Positions 25,259-35,537 of a stretch of DNA of 64,000 nt are shown here, piece after piece (position 1 is the stretch's first letter; the number at the start of each line of letters is the position of its first letter). Below the pieces are notes generated by a model. It had not been told where the DNA came from, ran no database searches, and worked only from the letters and a program-made list of their open reading frames with translations. A program made the translations under genes and the position numbers. Origin of the DNA: Phycisphaerae bacterium (GTDB lineage Bacteria; Planctomycetota; Phycisphaerae; Phycisphaerales; UBA1924); the NCBI GenBank assembly GCA_014192545.1, contig BJHL01000002.1, positions 124,001 through 188,000 of the forward strand. Direction: 5' to 3'.

Positions 25259-26185
25259 TCAACGCGGTGCATACGTACCTGCAAAGACGAACGCTGCCGG
25301 GCCTTGTTTGAAAACGTGGTTGATTGCCTTGTCCCATCGCACCCGAAGCGGCCCGCCCGGCACCTGCACAGCTGCAGTATGCACGAGCTTGTTTGCGACA
25401 ACACCCGCCACCAGCACAGCGCACGCACCCGTGCCGCACGCAAGCGTCACGCCACTGCCGCGTTCGTAAGTCCACATGAGGGCGCGTGTGCGAGAAGTTA
25501 CGCACGCGACATGCACATTCACGCTTTGCGGAAAGTGCGGGGACCGCTGCAAGACGGGTCCAGCAGCCGCGACAAGCTCTCGCGTCGGCTCTTTGCACCA
25601 CAGCACAGCGTGCGGATTGCCCATGCTGACGCATGTCATCGCGGAAACATGCCTCGCGGCGTCGCCCAGTTGCTTGCGAAGCGCCGCAGGCAAAGCAGCA
25701 TCAACAACTGCGGGCTGATTGTCGTGGCTTGTGTTCACAAGCGACAAACTGCATGGGACGCGCGACGGCGAGAGCAAAGGCTCGCCCATATCTACTTCCG
25801 CTGCCACGAACGCACGAGACTTCTTGACGATGCGAATGCTGCGAGCACCGACATCGAAAACACCAACATGCAGCGTCTCTCTCGCGAATGCGTGGCGTTC
25901 AACCATGTGTTTGGCGATGCAGCGAATGCCATTGCCGCACATGCCCCCATCAGTGCCATCGGCGTTGAAGACACGCATCGTGACATCATGCGGCTTGGCA
26001 GCTTTGCAAATCAGCAGCAGTTCGTCAGCACCCACGCCAAATTGCCGATTGCACAGTTGGCTCGCGATTTTGTGCCAGTTCCGCTTGAGTAACGCGGGCT
26101 GCGCGAGGGCGTCTATGACAACAAAGTCGTTGCCCAGACCATGGTACTTGAAAAACGGCAGCGTCCCTGCTGGCGAGTTTGGCAT
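25259..26185 (-). CDS. dapF: Diaminopimelate epimerase
   Basis: It interconverts LL- and meso-diaminopimelate for lysine and peptidoglycan synthesis. From ATG 26185 (MPNSPAGTLPF) it has 308 residues; a TTG 26191 is also in frame. The start of the domain, FFKYHGLGNDFVVID, is diagnostic. The two catalytic cysteines are Cys83 in GGMCGNGIRC and Cys250 in LACGTGACAV. It is slightly longer than the usual 270-280 because of a loop with PSRVPCSLSLVNTSHDNQ. The gene stands alone on the minus strand, with the terminator of the giant gene just upstream. Confidence 0.95.
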   Translation of the reverse strand: MPNSPAGTLPFFKYHGLGNDFVVIDALAQPALLKRNWHKIASQLCNRQFGVGADELLLICKAAKPHDVTMRVFNADGTDGGMCGNGIRCIAKHMVERHAFARETLHVGVFDVGARSIRIVKKSRAFVAAEVDMGEPLLSPSRVPCSLSLVNTSHDNQPAVVDAALPAALRKQLGDAARHVSAMTCVSMGNPHAVLWCKEPTRELVAAAGPVLQRSPHFPQSVNVHVACVTSRTRALMWTYERGSGVTLACGTGACAVLVAGVVANKLVHTAAVQVPGGPLRVRWDKAINHVFKQGPAAFVFAGTYAPR

Positions 26186-26224
26186 GTACAAAAGTAGTCG
26201 CGATTGCGCAGCACTCGCGAAAGA

Positions 26225-26293: not shown

Positions 26294-29200
26294 TCAGAGA
26301 ATATCGCTGACCGGCGTCTTGATGCCGAAAGGCACCGGAGCCGCGCTCCAGCCGCCGCCCAGGAACAAGTCGTAGTGCTCCATCGTCACTTGGAAGGGCA
26401 GTGCACCCACGATGTCGATGGCGAAGAAGCTGGGCAGACCACCGCCGACGATGGCTTGCAGTTCGTGCAGGCGCAACTGCTGGAAGCCGTTGGCCGGAAT
26501 AGTGATGTTGACCGAGGTATTGGGCCGCGGCGTCGCACCAGGCTCGTTGTAGAACAGAATGTTGACCGTGGCGTTGTTGGTTGTTGCCGTGGGGTTGTAG
26601 AAGTAGAGCGTCTCGAAGTACAGTCGGCCCGCCGACGCACCGTTGATGAACGCATCGCCGAAGAAGAAGCGAGTGCCTGCCTCGTACTGCGGGCTGCTCG
26701 CGTCGGCATCGCCGCGTTGAGCTTGGTAGCCCAGCACGCTCACGGGCAGATCGCTGGAGTAACGGATGCCCGCAGCATCGCCCGCGACAAGGCCCAGCGA
26801 GGCGCCAGTCACGATGACTGAGCGACCTGCGGGAACTTGAATGGTGCGCTGGCTGGCGGTGATGTTGTTGCGGATGTAAGTTGCCGACAGACTGACTGTG
26901 GCAGGTGCAGTGGAGGGGTTAAAGAACGTGATTTCGCTGGTCACGCCATTGCCGTTCGTGATGTTGGTGATGGCACCTTGGGTGTTGCCACCTTCTGAGT
27001 CACCCAGCGCTCCGAACGCACTTTCGTTGCCGCCACCAAAGCGGTAAGCAGTAATGCTCGCGACGATGCCTTCAAACGGCTGGGCAAGCAGCTGCGTGGG
27101 CGACGCGACCGGAGTTGCGTTGAGCTGCACGCCGAAGATGCCCGTACCGAGCTGAGCAAAGTCATTGATCGCGAAGCCTTCGCGGCCCAACGGGCGGACG
27201 CGACGAACTTCAGTCAGCGTGACGCGAGAGCCGTCGGCGAGGAAGCCGGTGAGTGTCACATCCACTTCGTAGTTTTGTGGGTTCCAGAAGAGGATGAAGT
27301 TGAGTGCCGCGCCCGGGTTGCGTTCCACACGCGGGAAGCTCCAAGTGGGAGCAACCTTGTCCGTGAACGCATCGCCCGTGCTGCTGCCGAAGTCGTAGTG
27401 GCTCAGCGTTGCACCGAGCGGCTGGATGCTTGCAGGATCAACCGGCACCGTCTGGCCTTGGCTGTTGCTATACGTTGTGGGCACGGTCCAGTCGATGACG
27501 ACTGAGTAAGGCTTGTTGGGAATAACGCCTGGAGCGCGGACGATCTGGCCATCAATGACGGCAGTGATCGTGTACCCATCGCGGCTGTTGGGCTGCATGG
27601 TGCCGCCGGGAAGCTGCGTGGGCGCGGTGCCGTCGTCGTAGTAGAGGGTGATGCGGAAGTCGATCGGGAACACATTGGGATTGACGATGGGCACAAACTC
27701 GCTGACCGTGTCGCCCGAGAAACCTTCGGGATAAACCAATCGGTTGACAGCAGGCTCGGTCATGATGTCAAGCTTGTAGCCGCCGACGCTATCGCCCAAG
27801 CCATCAACGATGACAAAGTAACGAACGTTGGCAGCCGAGCCGAAGGAGAGCTGCGCGGTTGAGCCAGGCAAACCGTCCGCGTCGGTTGCAATCGTGGTCC
27901 GGGTACTGTCGCCGTTGTCACGCAAGACCTGAATCTGTGCGTCCAGCGTCGAGCCGGTCGATGTTGAGAGGCGGAGGAAGACACGGCCCGGGGCAATTGT
28001 GCGGAAGTCGTATAGGTCGCGGTCGCCAGCGGGCTGAATGATGCTCGCTTGCGGGTTGGTCGTCGTGCCAACGCTGCTGCCGTCGCCAGTGCGGGTATTG
28101 AGCACGAGCGTGGTGGGGCTGTTGAAGTCGATGAAGCCCGGGTCGCCACCGCCGCCGCCACCGCCGCTGCCGGTGGGACCTTGGATGGTGATGCGATACT
28201 CGCCGATGGGCGTGGCGGAAGCAACACCATTTTGTGCATCAACCAGCACGAAGTAGCGCTGACCTGCGGTTGTGTTGTTGATGGTAAACACCGCGGCTTG
28301 TGCTGCGGCAGAAGCGTTGACCGTGCCAATCAGAGTAAAAGTGCTGCTGCCATCATCGCGGTAGACGCGGATGCGAGGCGCAATGGTGCCCAGATTGCTG
28401 ACAAACGGCGTCAGCGTGACGTTGTGAACGCCAGCGTTGAGGACCGTGAACGAGAACAGGTCATCGTCCGACTGCGGGTTGATGCGCGGGTTGCTGATGT
28501 CGTTGGGAAGATCAGTACCAACTTGACCTCGGCCTGTCGTGCCATCGATCGTGATAGGTGTTGCGAGGTCCCACTCGGTGCGGTTCGCGTGATCGTCAAG
28601 CACTGGAGCAGCGACATCGAGGATGTATTCTCCAGTGAGTGCGGTGTTGGCATTGGTGCCGAAGCCGAAGCTCTCGACAGCGATGTAAATGTTCTCGCCA
28701 CGGTTCACGTTGCTCAGTGTTGAAGAATCAAATGATGCCGTGACGCTATTGGTCGTGAGGTTGTCTGGCAGCTCCGCCGTTGCAAGAACTGTAAAGGTGC
28801 CGTTTGTGAGCTTCAGCAGTGACAATCGGCCACGCAGGAAGCTGCCTGCCGCGCGGGTGAGCGTCACGCTGACGTTGCCTTCGCTGGGCAACACGAACCG
28901 AAGCAGATCTGTATCGGCGGCGACTTCAATATTGCCGGGCGTCGATGCAAGACCAGTGAGGGAATCAAGAACGATGGGAGTCGCCGCAGTTGCCTGACCG
29001 TTGTCGAAGGTGCCATCACCGTTGGTGTCTGCGTCGGCGTGGTCATCAGTAGAGTCAAACGCAGCAGTCAACGTGTAGTTGCCGATGTCAGCAACGCCGT
29101 CGGTGCCTTCAACCACGATGTAGTAGAATCGGTATTCGCGGAAGTCGCCGTTGTTGACCGAGCCGCGTGAACGCGCGGGCGTGATCGACGCGAGCGTTGT

Positions 29201-32200
29201 CGCGATGTCAGGCTGGCCCGGCGCGGGCGTTGTGGCTTCGCCGATGCCCACGCGCATCCGAATGACGCCGTTCACGCCGCTGGGGTTCTCCGTGACTTCG
29301 TACACCGAGATGCGCGGCGAAAGGTTCGTCGTCGCCGACTCGACGGTAAAGCGAACGCGCTGATATTCAGGGAATTCGAAGCGGAAGACATCCGTGTCGC
29401 CCGCAGCCTCAATGCGACCGGCGATGCTCGTTGAGCCCAGGAAGTCATCGAAGACGAAATCGGTGGCATTCCAGAACTGGTTCGAGTTCGCATGATCGTC
29501 GACAAACGGAACGCCCGAGACTTCGATCTGGTACGTACCTTCGCTGGTTCCTTGACCCGCGACATCGATCGCAAACGTTTCGCCCGCGTTGGCCGCGAAC
29601 GTGAGTGCGATCGTGCCGCCACCTTGCTGGATGCCGTCGCCGACTTGGGCTCCGTTTTCACGGAAGACCGTGAACTGTCCATTCAGAGTCGAGCCGCCAG
29701 TGCGCGTGAGCCGAACGGTAACGTTTCCACTGCCAGGCGTCGTGAACTTGAACGCGTCAAAATCCTGCAGTCGCGAGGGTGTGTTGTTAATAATGCCCGC
29801 AATCACGCCGCGACCGTTGTTGGGATCGCCCTGCACATCGCCGATCGGAATCGGTGTTGCCAGATCGATGTCAAGCGAATCGGTGTGATCATCAACCACA
29901 ACGTTGCCGCCCTCGAAATCGGTGATCTGCTCAGGCATTGCGTTGATGAGCAACTGATAGCTGCCAAACGCCCGGCTCCAGTCGATTTCAGGCTTCACGT
30001 TTGCGACACGGCTGTCAGCTTGGTTCGGCGCTGGCGGCGCAATGGAGCCGTCAACCCACTTCTGGCCGCTTTCGACCTGAATGAAGTAGACCTGGCCAGC
30101 AACCACCGGAATCAAAACACGGGGGTCTTCATTCCTGAACAGTGCATTAAGCGTGCCAGCGGACGATGCGTCCACCAGATCACGATTTGCACCGACGACC
30201 CCTTCATAACGATACGCCGGGTTGTCGTTATTGTAACCGATCTGCGTGAAGTCGTTCGCGAAGACGCGAAGAGCCGAGTCGAATCGGCTGTCGTAGGTGT
30301 TCGTCTTACCGTTGGGAATCCACGGACCGGTCACACCAGCGTTCGCATTGGGCGCACGGCGAGCCGCAGGGCCAGCATTCTGCTGACCGTACACATCGTT
30401 GAGCGCGGTCGTACCAACACGGATTTCAGCCACGCCGCTGAACTCGGCACGGAAGAAGTACACGTCCGTGTCGTTGATGTCTTGAATCAGACCCAACCCA
30501 CCAGCGAAGGTCGTACCGCCGTCAAGTGATGGATTGATGAACCGACCGGAAATGTCGTTTCCGGTAACAGCCTGGCTGGGCTGATTGGGATTGACGACGA
30601 TGTCGGTGTCGCCCGTTGCCAAAATGCCCGCAGTGCGAGCCTGCGTGGCGTTCGTGAAGTCGCCTTCGTCCGCGGTCTCACGGAACGTACCAACCGCGCG
30701 ACCCATGTTGTCACGCACGCCATCGGCATTCACATCCTGACCACCGGCATCTGCCGTGACGCTGAACTGGTAGCGACCGGTGCCGTTCGCCGAGACGGAG
30801 ATGTAGTAAGTCTCGCCGCCCCAGATGTCAGCCGAAAGAATGCGCTCAGGCAGAACCGAACCTGGCGCGGCAAGTGACGGGTCGATTGCGCCGGGCACGT
30901 CGTTGGGTGGGGCAATCGTGTCGTTGGTATAAAGCGTGTTGCCCTTACTGTCGTACACAGTGATGCTGAAGTTGCCCGTCGTGCCGCCACCGAACACGGG
31001 GTTCAGTGTAATAGCAAGCCTTGTGGCGGCACGGTCATGGCGATCCCACTCGCCCGCAACGCCATCATCAAACGATGTGAGAGCAAACACGGCGGCGTCC
31101 GGTGCAGGATTGCCCGTATTCACCACACCGCCGGGAATGGAGCCATCTCCGGCGCGGTTGTTACCAAGCGCTGTCAGGGCGAAGAAGTCATCGTTGGCAA
31201 ACTGGCGCGTCTGTGCGGCAAATTGAATAACGTTGTTTGCCGGAACTGGCGGCAACTGCGGGTTGGCCGGCTGCACGGCAGTGAACTGCCCGCCGATGTA
31301 GAGCACTTCCTGCGGGTTGCCACCGTCGAGTTCGTCTTCGATGCCCGGTTCCTGAGCATCCGTGAATGCGTGCAGCGAGAAGACCGGTCCATCAGGCGTA
31401 CCGATCACAAATTGGTCGACAATCTGTGCGGGTCGGTACGTGACGAGATTGGTCTGATCGTTCTCGAATACGAAGTCGCCGCCGACAACGAGAACGGGGG
31501 CGACTTCGTTGCCGTTGATGTCCGGCGGATTGTAAACTTCGAGCGCACGAATTGAGCCGACAAAGCCTGCTCCTGGGTTGGCGATCTCATCGACCCATGG
31601 GTTCCCGTACATCAGCCGCGGCGTGTAGACCGCACGAGCACTGTCTTGCAGGGCATCAGGAATGCCCCAGACAACCAGATCAGACGAACGCCTGTTCACG
31701 ATGGTGGGAGCCACTTCCGGATCGCCATTGGTTGGCGTGGAATACGTGAAGTTTGCCGTGAAGTCGCCACCGATGTAAAGCACCGGAATCGGCGCATCGT
31801 CCGACGTTGGGTCTTGGTCAAGATCAGAGTTGTCCAAGTCGATCTCGAAGACTTGCAGCGCAAAGACCGTCCCATTGATCGTATCGGTTGCCGGCACCGG
31901 TGTGCCCGTGTTGATCGGCTGTACCTCCGCGCCGTTGAAGCGGGCGATGCCGCCAGTGAACGCACCACCGATGTACAACGAAGGCGGCGGATTGCCAGGA
32001 TCAGCGACTGCGGGAATGACGGGCGGGCCCGCCTGGAAGGCGCGACCGTTGCCAGCGTCGGGCGCGTCATACACCGCCAGCGCGAACACTGGACCGTCAA
32101 CACCTTGAGCAGCAGGCAACCAGCCGAACTGGAAGCTGAAGAATGCAAGATTGTCCGCCGCAGTACCGTCAGCATCGGCAAAATCACCGCCGATGAAGAG

Positions 32201-34396
32201 GCTCCGCGGGAACGGAATGTCACCTTGCGTGAACGGAGGAGTGGGATCCGAATCATCCGGATCGAACGGCTCTGGGTCGTATTCCGTGATCGCATTCACG
32301 GGACCATCAGTGCTGCCCAGGAATGCGTTCCATTCGTAACGACCATTGTTGGGATTGAAAATCCATGCGGCGAGGTTGTCGAGCGTGGCCAACTGACCTT
32401 GCCCGTCAATGAAGTTCAATGTGAAATCGCCGCCCACGACGAGAACCGGTCCCAGGGCGGCGCCAGCGCCGTCTGGCAGCCAGTTGAACAGTGCTCGAAT
32501 CTCAGCGCGATCTGTGCCAACTGTTGCCGTGTTGTTCACAAAGCCCAATTGAACCGGGCCATTCTGCGTCTGAATTTCGTTCTGTGCACCGGTGAACCAG
32601 TAATCTGCAGCGTCCCAAACCGTCAGGTTGCGCGAGTCAACGGGGAACGGACTGTCAGGCTCGGCCCGGCCAAAGTCACCACCGATGTAAAGCGCGGTGC
32701 CGGTGTTATCGTCATTGCCTGCATAAGTGTCAAGCATGTCGTACGGAGCAGTGAACTGGAACAGATCGGTATCGCCCGCTTGGTAGATACGACCTTCGCC
32801 GGTTGCCGTCGTGCGCCAGTTGCGATCGCGGATTGGGTTGCCGTACGAGTCAACACTCAGGAACGGATCGCTCCAAGGCAAGGGCGTTGCCTGACGCAGA
32901 TCACGATTGGTATTCTGTCCTGTGGTGTTACCGGGGACAAACGGGCTGTCAAGATGGTCGTCATTGCCTTGGCCAGGCGTTTGCGAGAAGGTGTGGTTCG
33001 CTTCGATGAACAGTTGGAACTGCGGCCCGTTGCCAGTCGCAAAACCGTCCACAACCACGAAGTAGCGTTCATTGCCGACAAGTTGAACTTCAAGTTGTGG
33101 CACAAGCCCGCTGAAGTTGTTATTGAACGCAATCTGTTGGCCAGCGGAATTGTACAACCGCAGTGCAGGATCGGTGACGGGCGCAAGACCGGTTGGAACC
33201 GCCGTGATAATGGCTTGGCCGCTGCCTTGGGCAACGAACGAATAGCTCTTGCTCTGGAATGAAGGCGGATTCGTGTTGGGGGCAGGAACCGGATCAGGCG
33301 CGGGGTTTGCGGGGGCAAATCCATCGAAGGCATCCGTGATCGAAGGACTGCGACGCGTCAAACGATCAAGATCGATGGGCGATGCAATACCGTCAACCAG
33401 CAGATAAAACGCGCCAGTTGCAAGCTGCAAGTTGTTGCTGCGCACTTCGTCGCTGCGAACGCGGATGAAGAATGTCTCACCTGGACGTGCGCGGAACGTT
33501 GCAAACGCGTCGTTGAAACGTCCGGTCTGTTCATCCGACGTCACCAGCACGCCCTGAGCCGTGTACACATCGATGTGCGTATCAAGCCGGTTGTTGAGTG
33601 TGCTATTCGCGCCTTGCGCGTTCACCGTCACCAGACTGTCCCAATTCACCGTATTGGGCGCGTCATACCGGTACACGATCTCGTCTTGACGTGTCCTTGC
33701 ATTCAACGCGCCCAAACCGCCGAGTTGACCGACGATAGCTTGTGGCAGAATGGGCGGATTAACCGTTGAGTCAGGAGCAGGAGAGCCCAGCGCGCGAGCG
33801 ATGCCGGTATCCTCCGGAATGTCGCCGCCGAGCGTGAAGGTCGCATTCGTCGTAACGATGCGCAGTGTGTAGTTGCCCTGAGGCGAACCCGGGTCGCTCT
33901 TCACGACTATGCGATACTCAGTGGCAGCGGTTGCAACAAATCCCGCCCAGCCATCGCGCTGGAAGCCGCTGGTCAGCGTGCCGTTGTTGGTGCCGCTTGC
34001 AATCAGCGTGGTGCCTGCGGCGTTCCACACTTCAACAGCGGTGTCGAGATTGCTGACGGGATTTTCGTTGGCGGTGTCGCCAAGCACGGTCACAAAGCCC
34101 GACGCCGGCGCGACAAATCGGTACGTGTCGTTGTTCGTGCTGACCAGCGCAGGGTTGATGTCGCCCGCAACAACGATGCGACCGCTGCCGTTGGCTGCTG
34201 GCAGAGCCAGCGGAGCCGCAAAGCTGCCTTCGAGCAACTGGCGATCTTCAAGGCGCTCGACCTTCTCGTGGTTGGCTGCACTCAGTCCCAGCGCTCTGCC
34301 CATCGCGCGGCTAAGCAGTGAGGTCAATGAACTCCCGCGCGAGCGCGTCATGCGGCGGCGAAGGGAAAGGGTCGAACGAATGTCCCTGCTATCCAT
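26294..34396 (-). CDS. Giant LEPR-XLL-type extracellular protein with PPC domains and a seven-repeat propeller
   Basis: 2700 residues from ATG 34396 (GGAG 6 bp upstream; GTG 34408 less likely). Residues about 45-55 hold RLEDRQLLEGSF, the planctomycete extracellular N-terminal motif, behind an Arg/Ser-rich leader without a classic signal peptide. Then come at least three pre-peptidase C-terminal (PPC) beta domains (about 70-470), marked by blocks such as YRIVVKSDPGSPQGNYTLRI. About 565-1110 contain seven (L/V)-(Y/F/V)-(I/V)-G-G-(D/A/Q)-F repeats, interpreted as a seven-bladed propeller. More PPC units follow to about 2210, several beginning DDHA or DDHT. The last 490 residues carry four repeats with V/F-NPxxxxV (IVNPN, FWNPQ, FFNPS, FYNPT). 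Likely cell-surface or matrix adhesin; ligand unknown. Monocistronic, with a strong terminator. Confidence 0.85.
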   Translation of the reverse strand: MDSRDIRSTLSLRRRMTRSRGSSLTSLLSRAMGRALGLSAANHEKVERLEDRQLLEGSFAAPLALPAANGSGRIVVAGDINPALVSTNNDTYRFVAPASGFVTVLGDTANENPVSNLDTAVEVWNAAGTTLIASGTNNGTLTSGFQRDGWAGFVATAATEYRIVVKSDPGSPQGNYTLRIVTTNATFTLGGDIPEDTGIARALGSPAPDSTVNPPILPQAIVGQLGGLGALNARTRQDEIVYRYDAPNTVNWDSLVTVNAQGANSTLNNRLDTHIDVYTAQGVLVTSDEQTGRFNDAFATFRARPGETFFIRVRSDEVRSNNLQLATGAFYLLVDGIASPIDLDRLTRRSPSITDAFDGFAPANPAPDPVPAPNTNPPSFQSKSYSFVAQGSGQAIITAVPTGLAPVTDPALRLYNSAGQQIAFNNNFSGLVPQLEVQLVGNERYFVVVDGFATGNGPQFQLFIEANHTFSQTPGQGNDDHLDSPFVPGNTTGQNTNRDLRQATPLPWSDPFLSVDSYGNPIRDRNWRTTATGEGRIYQAGDTDLFQFTAPYDMLDTYAGNDDNTGTALYIGGDFGRAEPDSPFPVDSRNLTVWDAADYWFTGAQNEIQTQNGPVQLGFVNNTATVGTDRAEIRALFNWLPDGAGAALGPVLVVGGDFTLNFIDGQGQLATLDNLAAWIFNPNNGRYEWNAFLGSTDGPVNAITEYDPEPFDPDDSDPTPPFTQGDIPFPRSLFIGGDFADADGTAADNLAFFSFQFGWLPAAQGVDGPVFALAVYDAPDAGNGRAFQAGPPVIPAVADPGNPPPSLYIGGAFTGGIARFNGAEVQPINTGTPVPATDTINGTVFALQVFEIDLDNSDLDQDPTSDDAPIPVLYIGGDFTANFTYSTPTNGDPEVAPTIVNRRSSDLVVWGIPDALQDSARAVYTPRLMYGNPWVDEIANPGAGFVGSIRALEVYNPPDINGNEVAPVLVVGGDFVFENDQTNLVTYRPAQIVDQFVIGTPDGPVFSLHAFTDAQEPGIEDELDGGNPQEVLYIGGQFTAVQPANPQLPPVPANNVIQFAAQTRQFANDDFFALTALGNNRAGDGSIPGGVVNTGNPAPDAAVFALTSFDDGVAGEWDRHDRAATRLAITLNPVFGGGTTGNFSITVYDSKGNTLYTNDTIAPPNDVPGAIDPSLAAPGSVLPERILSADIWGGETYYISVSANGTGRYQFSVTADAGGQDVNADGVRDNMGRAVGTFRETADEGDFTNATQARTAGILATGDTDIVVNPNQPSQAVTGNDISGRFINPSLDGGTTFAGGLGLIQDINDTDVYFFRAEFSGVAEIRVGTTALNDVYGQQNAGPAARRAPNANAGVTGPWIPNGKTNTYDSRFDSALRVFANDFTQIGYNNDNPAYRYEGVVGANRDLVDASSAGTLNALFRNEDPRVLIPVVAGQVYFIQVESGQKWVDGSIAPPAPNQADSRVANVKPEIDWSRAFGSYQLLINAMPEQITDFEGGNVVVDDHTDSLDIDLATPIPIGDVQGDPNNGRGVIAGIINNTPSRLQDFDAFKFTTPGSGNVTVRLTRTGGSTLNGQFTVFRENGAQVGDGIQQGGGTIALTFAANAGETFAIDVAGQGTSEGTYQIEVSGVPFVDDHANSNQFWNATDFVFDDFLGSTSIAGRIEAAGDTDVFRFEFPEYQRVRFTVESATTNLSPRISVYEVTENPSGVNGVIRMRVGIGEATTPAPGQPDIATTLASITPARSRGSVNNGDFREYRFYYIVVEGTDGVADIGNYTLTAAFDSTDDHADADTNGDGTFDNGQATAATPIVLDSLTGLASTPGNIEVAADTDLLRFVLPSEGNVSVTLTRAAGSFLRGRLSLLKLTNGTFTVLATAELPDNLTTNSVTASFDSSTLSNVNRGENIYIAVESFGFGTNANTALTGEYILDVAAPVLDDHANRTEWDLATPITIDGTTGRGQVGTDLPNDISNPRINPQSDDDLFSFTVLNAGVHNVTLTPFVSNLGTIAPRIRVYRDDGSSTFTLIGTVNASAAAQAAVFTINNTTAGQRYFVLVDAQNGVASATPIGEYRITIQGPTGSGGGGGGGDPGFIDFNSPTTLVLNTRTGDGSSVGTTTNPQASIIQPAGDRDLYDFRTIAPGRVFLRLSTSTGSTLDAQIQVLRDNGDSTRTTIATDADGLPGSTAQLSFGSAANVRYFVIVDGLGDSVGGYKLDIMTEPAVNRLVYPEGFSGDTVSEFVPIVNPNVFPIDFRITLYYDDGTAPTQLPGGTMQPNSRDGYTITAVIDGQIVRAPGVIPNKPYSVVIDWTVPTTYSNSQGQTVPVDPASIQPLGATLSHYDFGSSTGDAFTDKVAPTWSFPRVERNPGAALNFILFWNPQNYEVDVTLTGFLADGSRVTLTEVRRVRPLGREGFAINDFAQLGTGIFGVQLNATPVASPTQLLAQPFEGIVASITAYRFGGGNESAFGALGDSEGGNTQGAITNITNGNGVTSEITFFNPSTAPATVSLSATYIRNNITASQRTIQVPAGRSVIVTGASLGLVAGDAAGIRYSSDLPVSVLGYQAQRGDADASSPQYEAGTRFFFGDAFINGASAGRLYFETLYFYNPTATTNNATVNILFYNEPGATPRPNTSVNITIPANGFQQLRLHELQAIVGGGLPSFFAIDIVGALPFQVTMEHYDLFLGGGWSAAPVPFGIKTPVSDIL

Positions 34397-34829
34397 AGTC
34401 GGCTCCACCGACGGACTCGTGCTGGTTCGTCATACGTCACGACGAACCAGCGTCCGCCAACATCACTCAACGAGTCGGCTCACGCTCTATCCCAACGTGT
34501 CGGCTCGAGATTCCGCATCTCGAACTCTTGCCCTGGTGGGCAGCGTACTTTCGCACGCTCCCGGGCTAGGCCTGGGCTGTGCGTTGGTCAGCACGGTAGC
34601 CCTCTGCCTGTTGGGTCGTTACAGGATACAAACTCTGGTGGGGGTCTGTCTAGTCCCCCCCTACCAAGAATGAACCAAATAACTTGGCATTCGTCCGGTA
34701 GGGGTTGGGGGTCGCCTTCGCCCACTCGTCCGGGCGCACCTCTGGCGCGTCCGGGTCTATCCCGTTGGCAACTATTCGTGGCTCGCTGGCGCGGGTTGCG
34801 TCGTTCTTACCAGATGGACTTCCATGCAA
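34397..34829. other. Intergenic region upstream of the giant gene
   Basis: 433 bp between the giant gene and the racemase-like gene, both on the minus strand. No gene is supported. A short GGGGG/CCCCC inverted pair around 34640-34665 and C/G-rich stretches are present. A TATCCT on the minus strand near 34625 could be a weak -10, but no matching -35 was found, so the giant gene's promoter is not assigned. Confidence 0.45.
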
Positions 34830-35537
34830 TCAGTTCGCACCGGGCGTCGTTCGCTCCACCGCCGCATGCGCCAAGATTTCCGAACTGTCATAGATAGGCA
34901 GCACGCAATTGTCCACCCCAATCACCAGCGGCAGTTCGCTGCTTGCCAAAATCACCGCCTCACATCCGCCCTCATACATGTGCTGCACCATGCTCAACAC
35001 AGCTTCATGACTTTCAGGCCTCGTTGTGCCGTAAATCAACTCATCGAAAATGATCCGGTCCAATCGCTCGGCTTCATGCTCGCTAGGCGCATGCACCTGA
35101 ATGCCACGCAAACCCAGATGTGTCTGATACGTCGAGCTGCGCGTCACAAGTTTGGTTCCCAAAATGCCCACAACCTTGCGTTTGTCCTTCGCGAGCTGTT
35201 CGCCCACCAACTCCGGAATCGTCAGCCACGGAATCGGGCTGCCAACTTCCGCAAGTTGCACGCCGTATTGCACCGCGTTGTCGGGCGTCAAACAAATCCC
35301 CGCGCCGCATCGCGCAAGAATCTCCGCGCTCTTCCGCAACAGTTTTCCCACGCCATGCCAGTCATCCCGCCGAATGCAATCCAGATACGCCGACAACGGT
35401 TCGTTGTGAACACTAATCCGCGGCTGCTCGTTGGGCGACCGCCTTGTGCCCGCAAATCGAGTCACGAGGCGATAGAACAAAGCGCAGCCTTCTGAACTGA
35501 CGCCGACGATGCCGATGTGGTTGGTTGGTGTTGCCAT
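34830..35537 (-). CDS. Aspartate/glutamate racemase-family protein with altered active site
   Basis: About 235 residues from ATG 35537 (MATPTNHIGIVGVSSEG); the frame extends upstream antisense to hscB, which argues against a longer start. The two-lobed Asp/Glu racemase fold is recognised by GIVGVSSEGCALFYR, ILARCGAGICLTPDNAVQYG, VVGILGTKLV and EAVILASSELPLVIG. In active enzymes each lobe supplies a cysteine, in C-(P)-x-N-T and G-C-T-E-x-P. Here these places read TPDNA and SSELP, so both appear replaced; a Cys lies two residues before the first site. Catalytic racemisation is therefore doubtful. It is divergent from hscB at 35638. Confidence 0.75.
   Translation of the reverse strand: MATPTNHIGIVGVSSEGCALFYRLVTRFAGTRRSPNEQPRISVHNEPLSAYLDCIRRDDWHGVGKLLRKSAEILARCGAGICLTPDNAVQYGVQLAEVGSPIPWLTIPELVGEQLAKDKRKVVGILGTKLVTRSSTYQTHLGLRGIQVHAPSEHEAERLDRIIFDELIYGTTRPESHEAVLSMVQHMYEGGCEAVILASSELPLVIGVDNCVLPIYDSSEILAHAAVERTTPGAN

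Follow-up and report, generated by a model that had tools for sequence, protein, structure and literature searches.

The window, a stretch of 64,000 nucleotides, carried on its minus strand a gene for a giant protein with a GTG start codon, whose frame stayed open for seven further codons upstream. An Asp/Glu racemase-like gene (PF01177; 34830-35780, minus strand) was situated directly upstream and dapF (25259-26191) directly downstream; an ORF at 34824-35495 on the plus strand was rejected as a gene, being antisense to the racemase-like gene. A functional operon was sought among the neighbours, which were housekeeping genes (Asp/Glu racemase-like, HscB, CNNM, dapF, DsbD_N, AhpC/TSA) and gave no functional clue. 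The genome was of Phycisphaerales type, homologous loci coming mostly from MAGs named Phycisphaerales/Phycisphaeraceae. Searches of the whole giant protein against Pfam and NCBIfam returned a weak PPC match and nothing else. Its features, with residues numbered in the giant protein, were:

26294..34408, minus strand: giant protein, whole gene (2704 aa, one open 8.1-kb frame)
32705..32905, minus strand: host PPC-like domain, predicted first half (GRI..DTDLFQFTAP, strands 1-2), residues 502-568; positions 2-78 of the insert-free profile, E 3e-14
31064..32698, minus strand: inserted seven-bladed GGDF propeller, residues 571-1115, as predicted by AlphaFold2 and matched by VIA
32672..32692, minus strand: strand B of blade 1, motif match LYIGGDF, residue 573
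32423..32443, minus strand: strand B of blade 2, motif match LVVGGDF, residue 656
32180..32200, minus strand: strand B of blade 3, motif match LFIGGDF, residue 737
31958..31978, minus strand: strand B of blade 4, motif match LYIGGAF, residue 811
31760..31780, minus strand: strand B of blade 5, motif match LYIGGDF, residue 877
31472..31492, minus strand: strand B of blade 6, motif match LVVGGDF, residue 973
31283..31303, minus strand: strand B of blade 7, motif match LYIGGQF, residue 1036
31064..31090, minus strand: strand A (VFALTSFDD), predicted to complete blade 1 as its Velcro strand, residues 1107-1115; found by the blade HMM as the eighth, half repeat and assigned by DSSP as a strand at model residues 619-627
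30725..31060, minus strand: host PPC-like domain, predicted second half (strands 3-8), residues 1117-1228; insert-free profile positions 86-214, E 2e-21
29480..29827, minus strand: another, uninterrupted PPC-like unit, residues 1528-1643; PF04151 E 1.7e-4, 22.9 bits against a cut-off of 25.9
26297..27889, minus strand: C-terminal module, residues 2174-2704; PF18986 (DUF5719) E 2.6e-5, below cut-off, with paralogue matches

An earlier note on this DNA had listed seven strand motifs, and exactly those seven strings, of the form L-Y/V/F-I/V-G-G-x-F, were present in the one open frame at residues 573-1042 (window positions 32692 down to 31283). Over 20,000 rounds of composition shuffling, the giant protein never yielded more than one motif match, and the seven GGxF motifs were encoded by differing codons. 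The span proposed for them, 31070-32720, encodes residues 563-1113 or thereabouts; the propeller itself occupies 571-1115 (31064-32698). The flanking PPC-like segments AGDTDLFQFTAPYDMLD, NFSITVYDSKGNTLYTND and GETYYISVSANGTGRYQF lay where the note had placed them. The insert had the same GC and GC3 as the N-terminal part of the gene, and thus bore no sign of being a recent foreign insert. The C-terminal module (~480 aa, weak DUF5719) recurred in many proteins, 488-1888 aa long, of related genomes and, within the same genome, in an FG-GAP protein encoded on contig C7; it may be a widely used module for sorting or anchoring.

To describe the repeats we used a blade HMM of 72 positions made from 242 segments of the protein family, the repeats of the window protein included. 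Its consensus read GPVRALTVWD (strand A), VLYVGGDFTTAGG (strand B), NNLAAWDG (strand C) and WAALGAG (strand D), and it found seven repeats in the giant protein at i-E of 2e-11 to 1e-14, values that express internal consistency, not independent homology, because these same repeats had trained the HMM. It also found an eighth half repeat, DAAVFALTSFDD, at residues about 1103-1115, which comprised strand A only and was absent from the earlier list. Eight matches, the last normally a half repeat, were obtained in 41 of the 46 insert-bearing homologues, the exceptions being G003, G001 and G032 with seven, G145 with nine and G087 with six. The first repeat began from HMM position ~23 and the last half repeat extended to ~26. 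Since the insert runs from strand B to a closing strand A, its register points to the classical Velcro arrangement of a seven-bladed propeller, in which the N- and C-terminal strands lie in one sheet (PMC8458387, PMC3797127). Six free-standing GGxF proteins examined from the same order began at strand A and finished at C or D; relative to their arrays, the inserted propeller was one strand out of phase.

AlphaFold2 prediction across the propeller and its flanks (residues 488-1232, with 65 homologues), a check that the earlier note had proposed, reached a mean pLDDT of 88.0 and a pTM of 0.90. The best chain in the VIA comparison was the designed seven-bladed propeller 7bid (Z 21.0, rmsd 3.8, 284/286 residues), aligned over model residues 84-628, which are residues 571-1115 of the protein; other VIA rows for this long-form model were WD40-type and other propellers, and the best matches had ~10% identity. 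Foldseek results for the 745-residue model were weak, with one domain occupying the list. The model thus predicts that seven four-stranded repeats close into one ring, as had been proposed, and both the whole-ring alignment and the Velcro strand in the sequence agree with that. An open array or another fold would suit homologue G087, with its five repeats and a half repeat, as well as the free-standing arrays with 7, 11, 13 or 14 repeats, but it would have to accommodate the alignment of the whole ring to a seven-bladed propeller at Z 21, a terminal half repeat that provides the missing strand, and the conserved count of seven and a half in 41/46. We find it very improbable and rejected it in favour of the closed propeller.

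Residues 571-1115 are most likely a propeller of the GGxF (DUF5122/Rax2-like) kind. Links to the DUF5122 and kelch families, which the earlier note had suggested checking, did not appear in the window protein itself, which matched neither of them, nor Rax2 (PF12768), in the Pfam search, and emerged for DUF5122 (PF17164) through its relatives: 13 of the 66 protein family members matched DUF5122 and nine Rax2, the DUF5122 cut-off being reached by homologue G145 only (27.2 vs 27 bits). Kelch affiliation was rejected, with a single family member in 66 matching the Kelch model at E 0.096. The inserted propeller shares the LYxGGxF..N.A.W repeat with DUF5122 and the Rax2 C-terminal propeller but has long, irregular loops, and differs from the free-standing arrays in being permuted by one strand and wholly inside another domain. 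A free-standing protein with 13 GGxF repeats and a signal-peptide-like start was encoded in the same genome (G000:C7:125000-128500, L206), and its relatives had dockerin-like repeats at the end.

Across full-length homologues, the linker between DLFxFxPPxDMLG and W...RPxTR was bimodal, at 19-38 aa in 22/68 and 323-951 aa in 46/68, so that relatives without the insert, which the earlier note had suggested looking for, do exist. A profile of 220 positions from 21 insert-free regions matched all 46 insert-bearing proteins in two separate segments, one covering roughly positions 2-78 and the other roughly 84-214. Because it split at the same point in every one of them, the flanks can be taken as two halves of one domain, as claimed beforehand, a conclusion borne out by the 22 orthologues that join the parts through 19-38 residues. 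The host was recognisable on both sides of the guest and also existed without it, which is the pattern of a domain insertion (A1-B-A2).

The further claim that this host is a PPC domain held for profile and fold but not for the Pfam PPC cut-off. Pfam gave no PF04151 match in the host domain of any protein family member at E <= 0.1, and none among insert-free forms, and PPC membership was therefore sought through profiles and fold. PDB sequence searches (A1 and A2) gave chance matches only. The host profile aligned by hhalign with the uninterrupted unit at residues 1528-1643 (A3) at a probability of 96.9 and E 1.5e-10, the main gap of the alignment being the insertion loop, and A3 matched PF04151 in 12 of 50 homologues (best E 2.9e-5). 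An AlphaFold2 model of one insert-free homologue was of moderate quality (pLDDT 62.8, core blocks 87-91). Its strands (58-67, 73-78 / 118-121, 129-134, 140-144, 202-208, 213-222) followed the same order as those of the long-form model (44-54, 60-66 / 645-650, 660-665, 671-675, 686-688, 713-720, 724-734). In VIA this short form matched ColG/ColH collagen-binding domains (Z 11.3-10.1, up to 111/114 residues; 1nqj at Z 11.3) and the collagenase pre-peptidase C-terminal domain 5sv5 (Z 9.6), and the match to whole PPC/collagen-binding domains covered model residues 12-221; Foldseek gave weak matches, the best of them at E 0.037 and those of PPC type at no better than E 0.07. The host thus appears PPC-like by profile and fold. 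It shares its strand order and the DxDxFxF and GxYxxxV signatures with PPC (PF04151) and the clostridial collagen-binding fold, but lies below Pfam detection and has a strand 2-3 loop that is either lengthened (19-38 aa) or replaced by the ~545-aa propeller. Profile and strand order suggest that the two host halves are in contact in the long form. Were the propeller merely placed between two complete domains, Pfam might well recognise PPC on neither side, as observed; yet insert-free orthologues join both parts directly, a single profile spans both, whole PPC/collagen-binding domains can be matched to the joined form, and the alignment with the profile of the second PPC unit continues through the junction. 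Two separate domains are on this evidence exceedingly improbable, and we rejected that arrangement in favour of one interrupted host.

When searched by its downstream part, the giant gene was found in 76 of the 163 genomes of its taxonomic family; the propeller was matched in 39, a few via free-standing propellers only. Elsewhere, in the other sampled families of the order, the full-length gene was not found and the propeller part alone was matched, in free-standing proteins. HscB, two CNNM/CBS genes, DsbD_N and AhpC/TSA flanked the gene both with the insert (L143) and without it (L192, L191, L177), so its presence or absence concerns one orthologous place. One orthologue (L124, G134) was split over several frames in a single-contig genome, and is possibly a pseudogene or the result of a sequencing error. 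On an unrooted tree of the flanks only (1822 columns), the presence of the propeller switched at least four times, the four state changes being forced by starred branches and comparing with 19 in shuffles.

The insert tree had 23 of 40 splits in common with the flank tree, most shallow groups agreeing and deep branches differing. Blade 1 was the best match of blade 1 in every cross-clade comparison and blade 7 was one-to-one in most; the middle blades 3-6 of distant clades were not clearly one-to-one, and since the deep trees differ as well, blades may have turned over or been exchanged to some extent. Parsimony on the tree without an outgroup made one gain and four losses as cheap as any history, and did not fix the direction of change because no homologue outside the family was available to root the tree. 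Sequence comparison favours one insertion with later losses, given the same junction, the out-of-phase register and the one-to-one pairing of blade 1 across all clades. Several independent insertions, or horizontal movement between orthologues, could also produce at least four switches and trees that disagree at depth, and free-standing GGxF propellers are frequent in these genomes. We nevertheless regard such a history as unlikely in view of the identical junction in 46/46, the shared register, and the one-to-one correspondence of blade 1 in all clades and of blade 7 in most comparisons.

Further plasticity was seen in relatives. In G145 (3022 aa, no stops), ~400 aa carrying six FG-GAP_3 stretches (PF13517, E 1.4e-16) broke into the GGDF propeller behind strand A of blade 4 (GPVFALETYDP), in the A-B loop of that blade, and the same FG-GAP insert was present in G146, of the same genus (phmmer 2e-108; FG-GAP/VCBS propeller loci L090 in G145 and L130 in G146). 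The G145 sequence would accordingly contain three nesting levels in one chain, an FG-GAP propeller within the GGDF propeller and the latter within the PPC-like domain. G087 (L104, 3380) lacked exactly two blades compared with its 92-93% identical sister G011 (L036, 3349 and 3715), and the junction fell inside a perfect direct repeat, ACGAACGGCCCGGTGTACGCGCT; either genuine recombination or a collapsed assembly (genome 60% complete) may account for the difference. In G183 (L127, near reference residue 102), a different PPC unit carried a small domain of 71 aa (GDRVTIAGATPSGFNGTF...) in its strand 2-3 loop. In L105 (G089), two extra tandem PPC-like units followed reference residue 254, an ordinary domain duplication.

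We think it probable that a Velcro-closed GGxF propeller in the strand 2-3 loop of the host, a single insertion with about four losses, and a binding platform together describe this protein. The propeller would occupy the strand 2-3 loop of an eight-stranded PPC-like sandwich (host about 502-568 and 1117-1228). Because its first strand (B) and its last (A) belong to the same blade sheet, the two ends of the propeller should be neighbours, fitting a hairpin loop and leaving the host undisturbed; adjacent ends would explain both the insertion and the later clean loss, and would allow guest and host to fold independently. For inserted domains, the median end distance is 14.3 A vs 29.8 A (PMC13114784). 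The most likely history would be one ancestral insertion, vertical inheritance and then about four losses.

Two tethers would hold the propeller disc rigidly and so fix its angle relative to the PPC array. The PPC arrays and the DUF5719-like C-terminal module suggest a putative secreted, surface or matrix protein, and the most likely role of the propeller would be that of an optional ligand-binding platform on a large, putatively secreted PPC-repeat surface protein, with some lineages dispensing with its putative ligand. Many secreted propellers are glycan enzymes, and some of the weak Foldseek matches were glycosidases, as a catalytic propeller (e.g., a glycan-active domain) would lead one to expect. 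However, the glycosidase rows aligned poorly (TMq about 0.13), the best fold matches were generic WD40/designer propellers at ~10% identity, and Pfam/NCBIfam searches matched no enzyme family; catalysis seems to us distinctly improbable, and we prefer a binding module.

Domain insertion is already well known, in nested form too, and so are propellers and PPC domains. Of multidomain proteins, 20% contain insertions; the termini of inserted domains lie close together, and nested A1-B1-C-B2-A2 cases are known. Our protein falls in the same architecture class (A1-B-A2, A1-B1-C-B2-A2), but a guest is usually smaller than its host (medians of 115 and 199 residues), whereas here a propeller of ~545 residues sits in a PPC-like host of ~180 (PMC13114784). 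Our search of open-licence papers found no propeller inside a PPC domain and no giant Planctomycetes proteins of such kind. Prolyl oligopeptidase likewise has a seven-bladed propeller interrupting another domain, but its host is a different one, an alpha/beta hydrolase, and its propeller, which is not known to have Velcro closure, gates an active site. Integrins have an I domain inserted in an FG-GAP propeller, and G145 and G146 similarly have a domain plugged into a propeller loop, but there the guest is itself a propeller. Within the reach of the search, what is new is the pairing of this host with this guest, their inverted size ratio, the recurrent presence and absence of the insert at a syntenic locus, and nesting to a third level; the unusual part is a guest much larger than its host, apparently lost repeatedly and once re-nested.

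We tentatively postulate, with somewhat more doubt than confidence, that in this family the strand 2-3 loop of PPC-like domains may be a socket for plugging and unplugging binding modules (the GGDF propeller, the FG-GAP guest that G145/G146 carry in turn within blade 4 of that propeller, the small domain of G183). The finding leaves knowledge of propeller or PPC function unchanged. If the loop is such a socket, these genomes would hold a natural evolutionary series of a larger-than-host domain entering, persisting and leaving. Both states at a syntenic locus amount to a natural experiment on which features (Velcro-adjacent termini, loop choice) permit insertion and clean loss, and protein engineers would gain a naturally tested insertion site.
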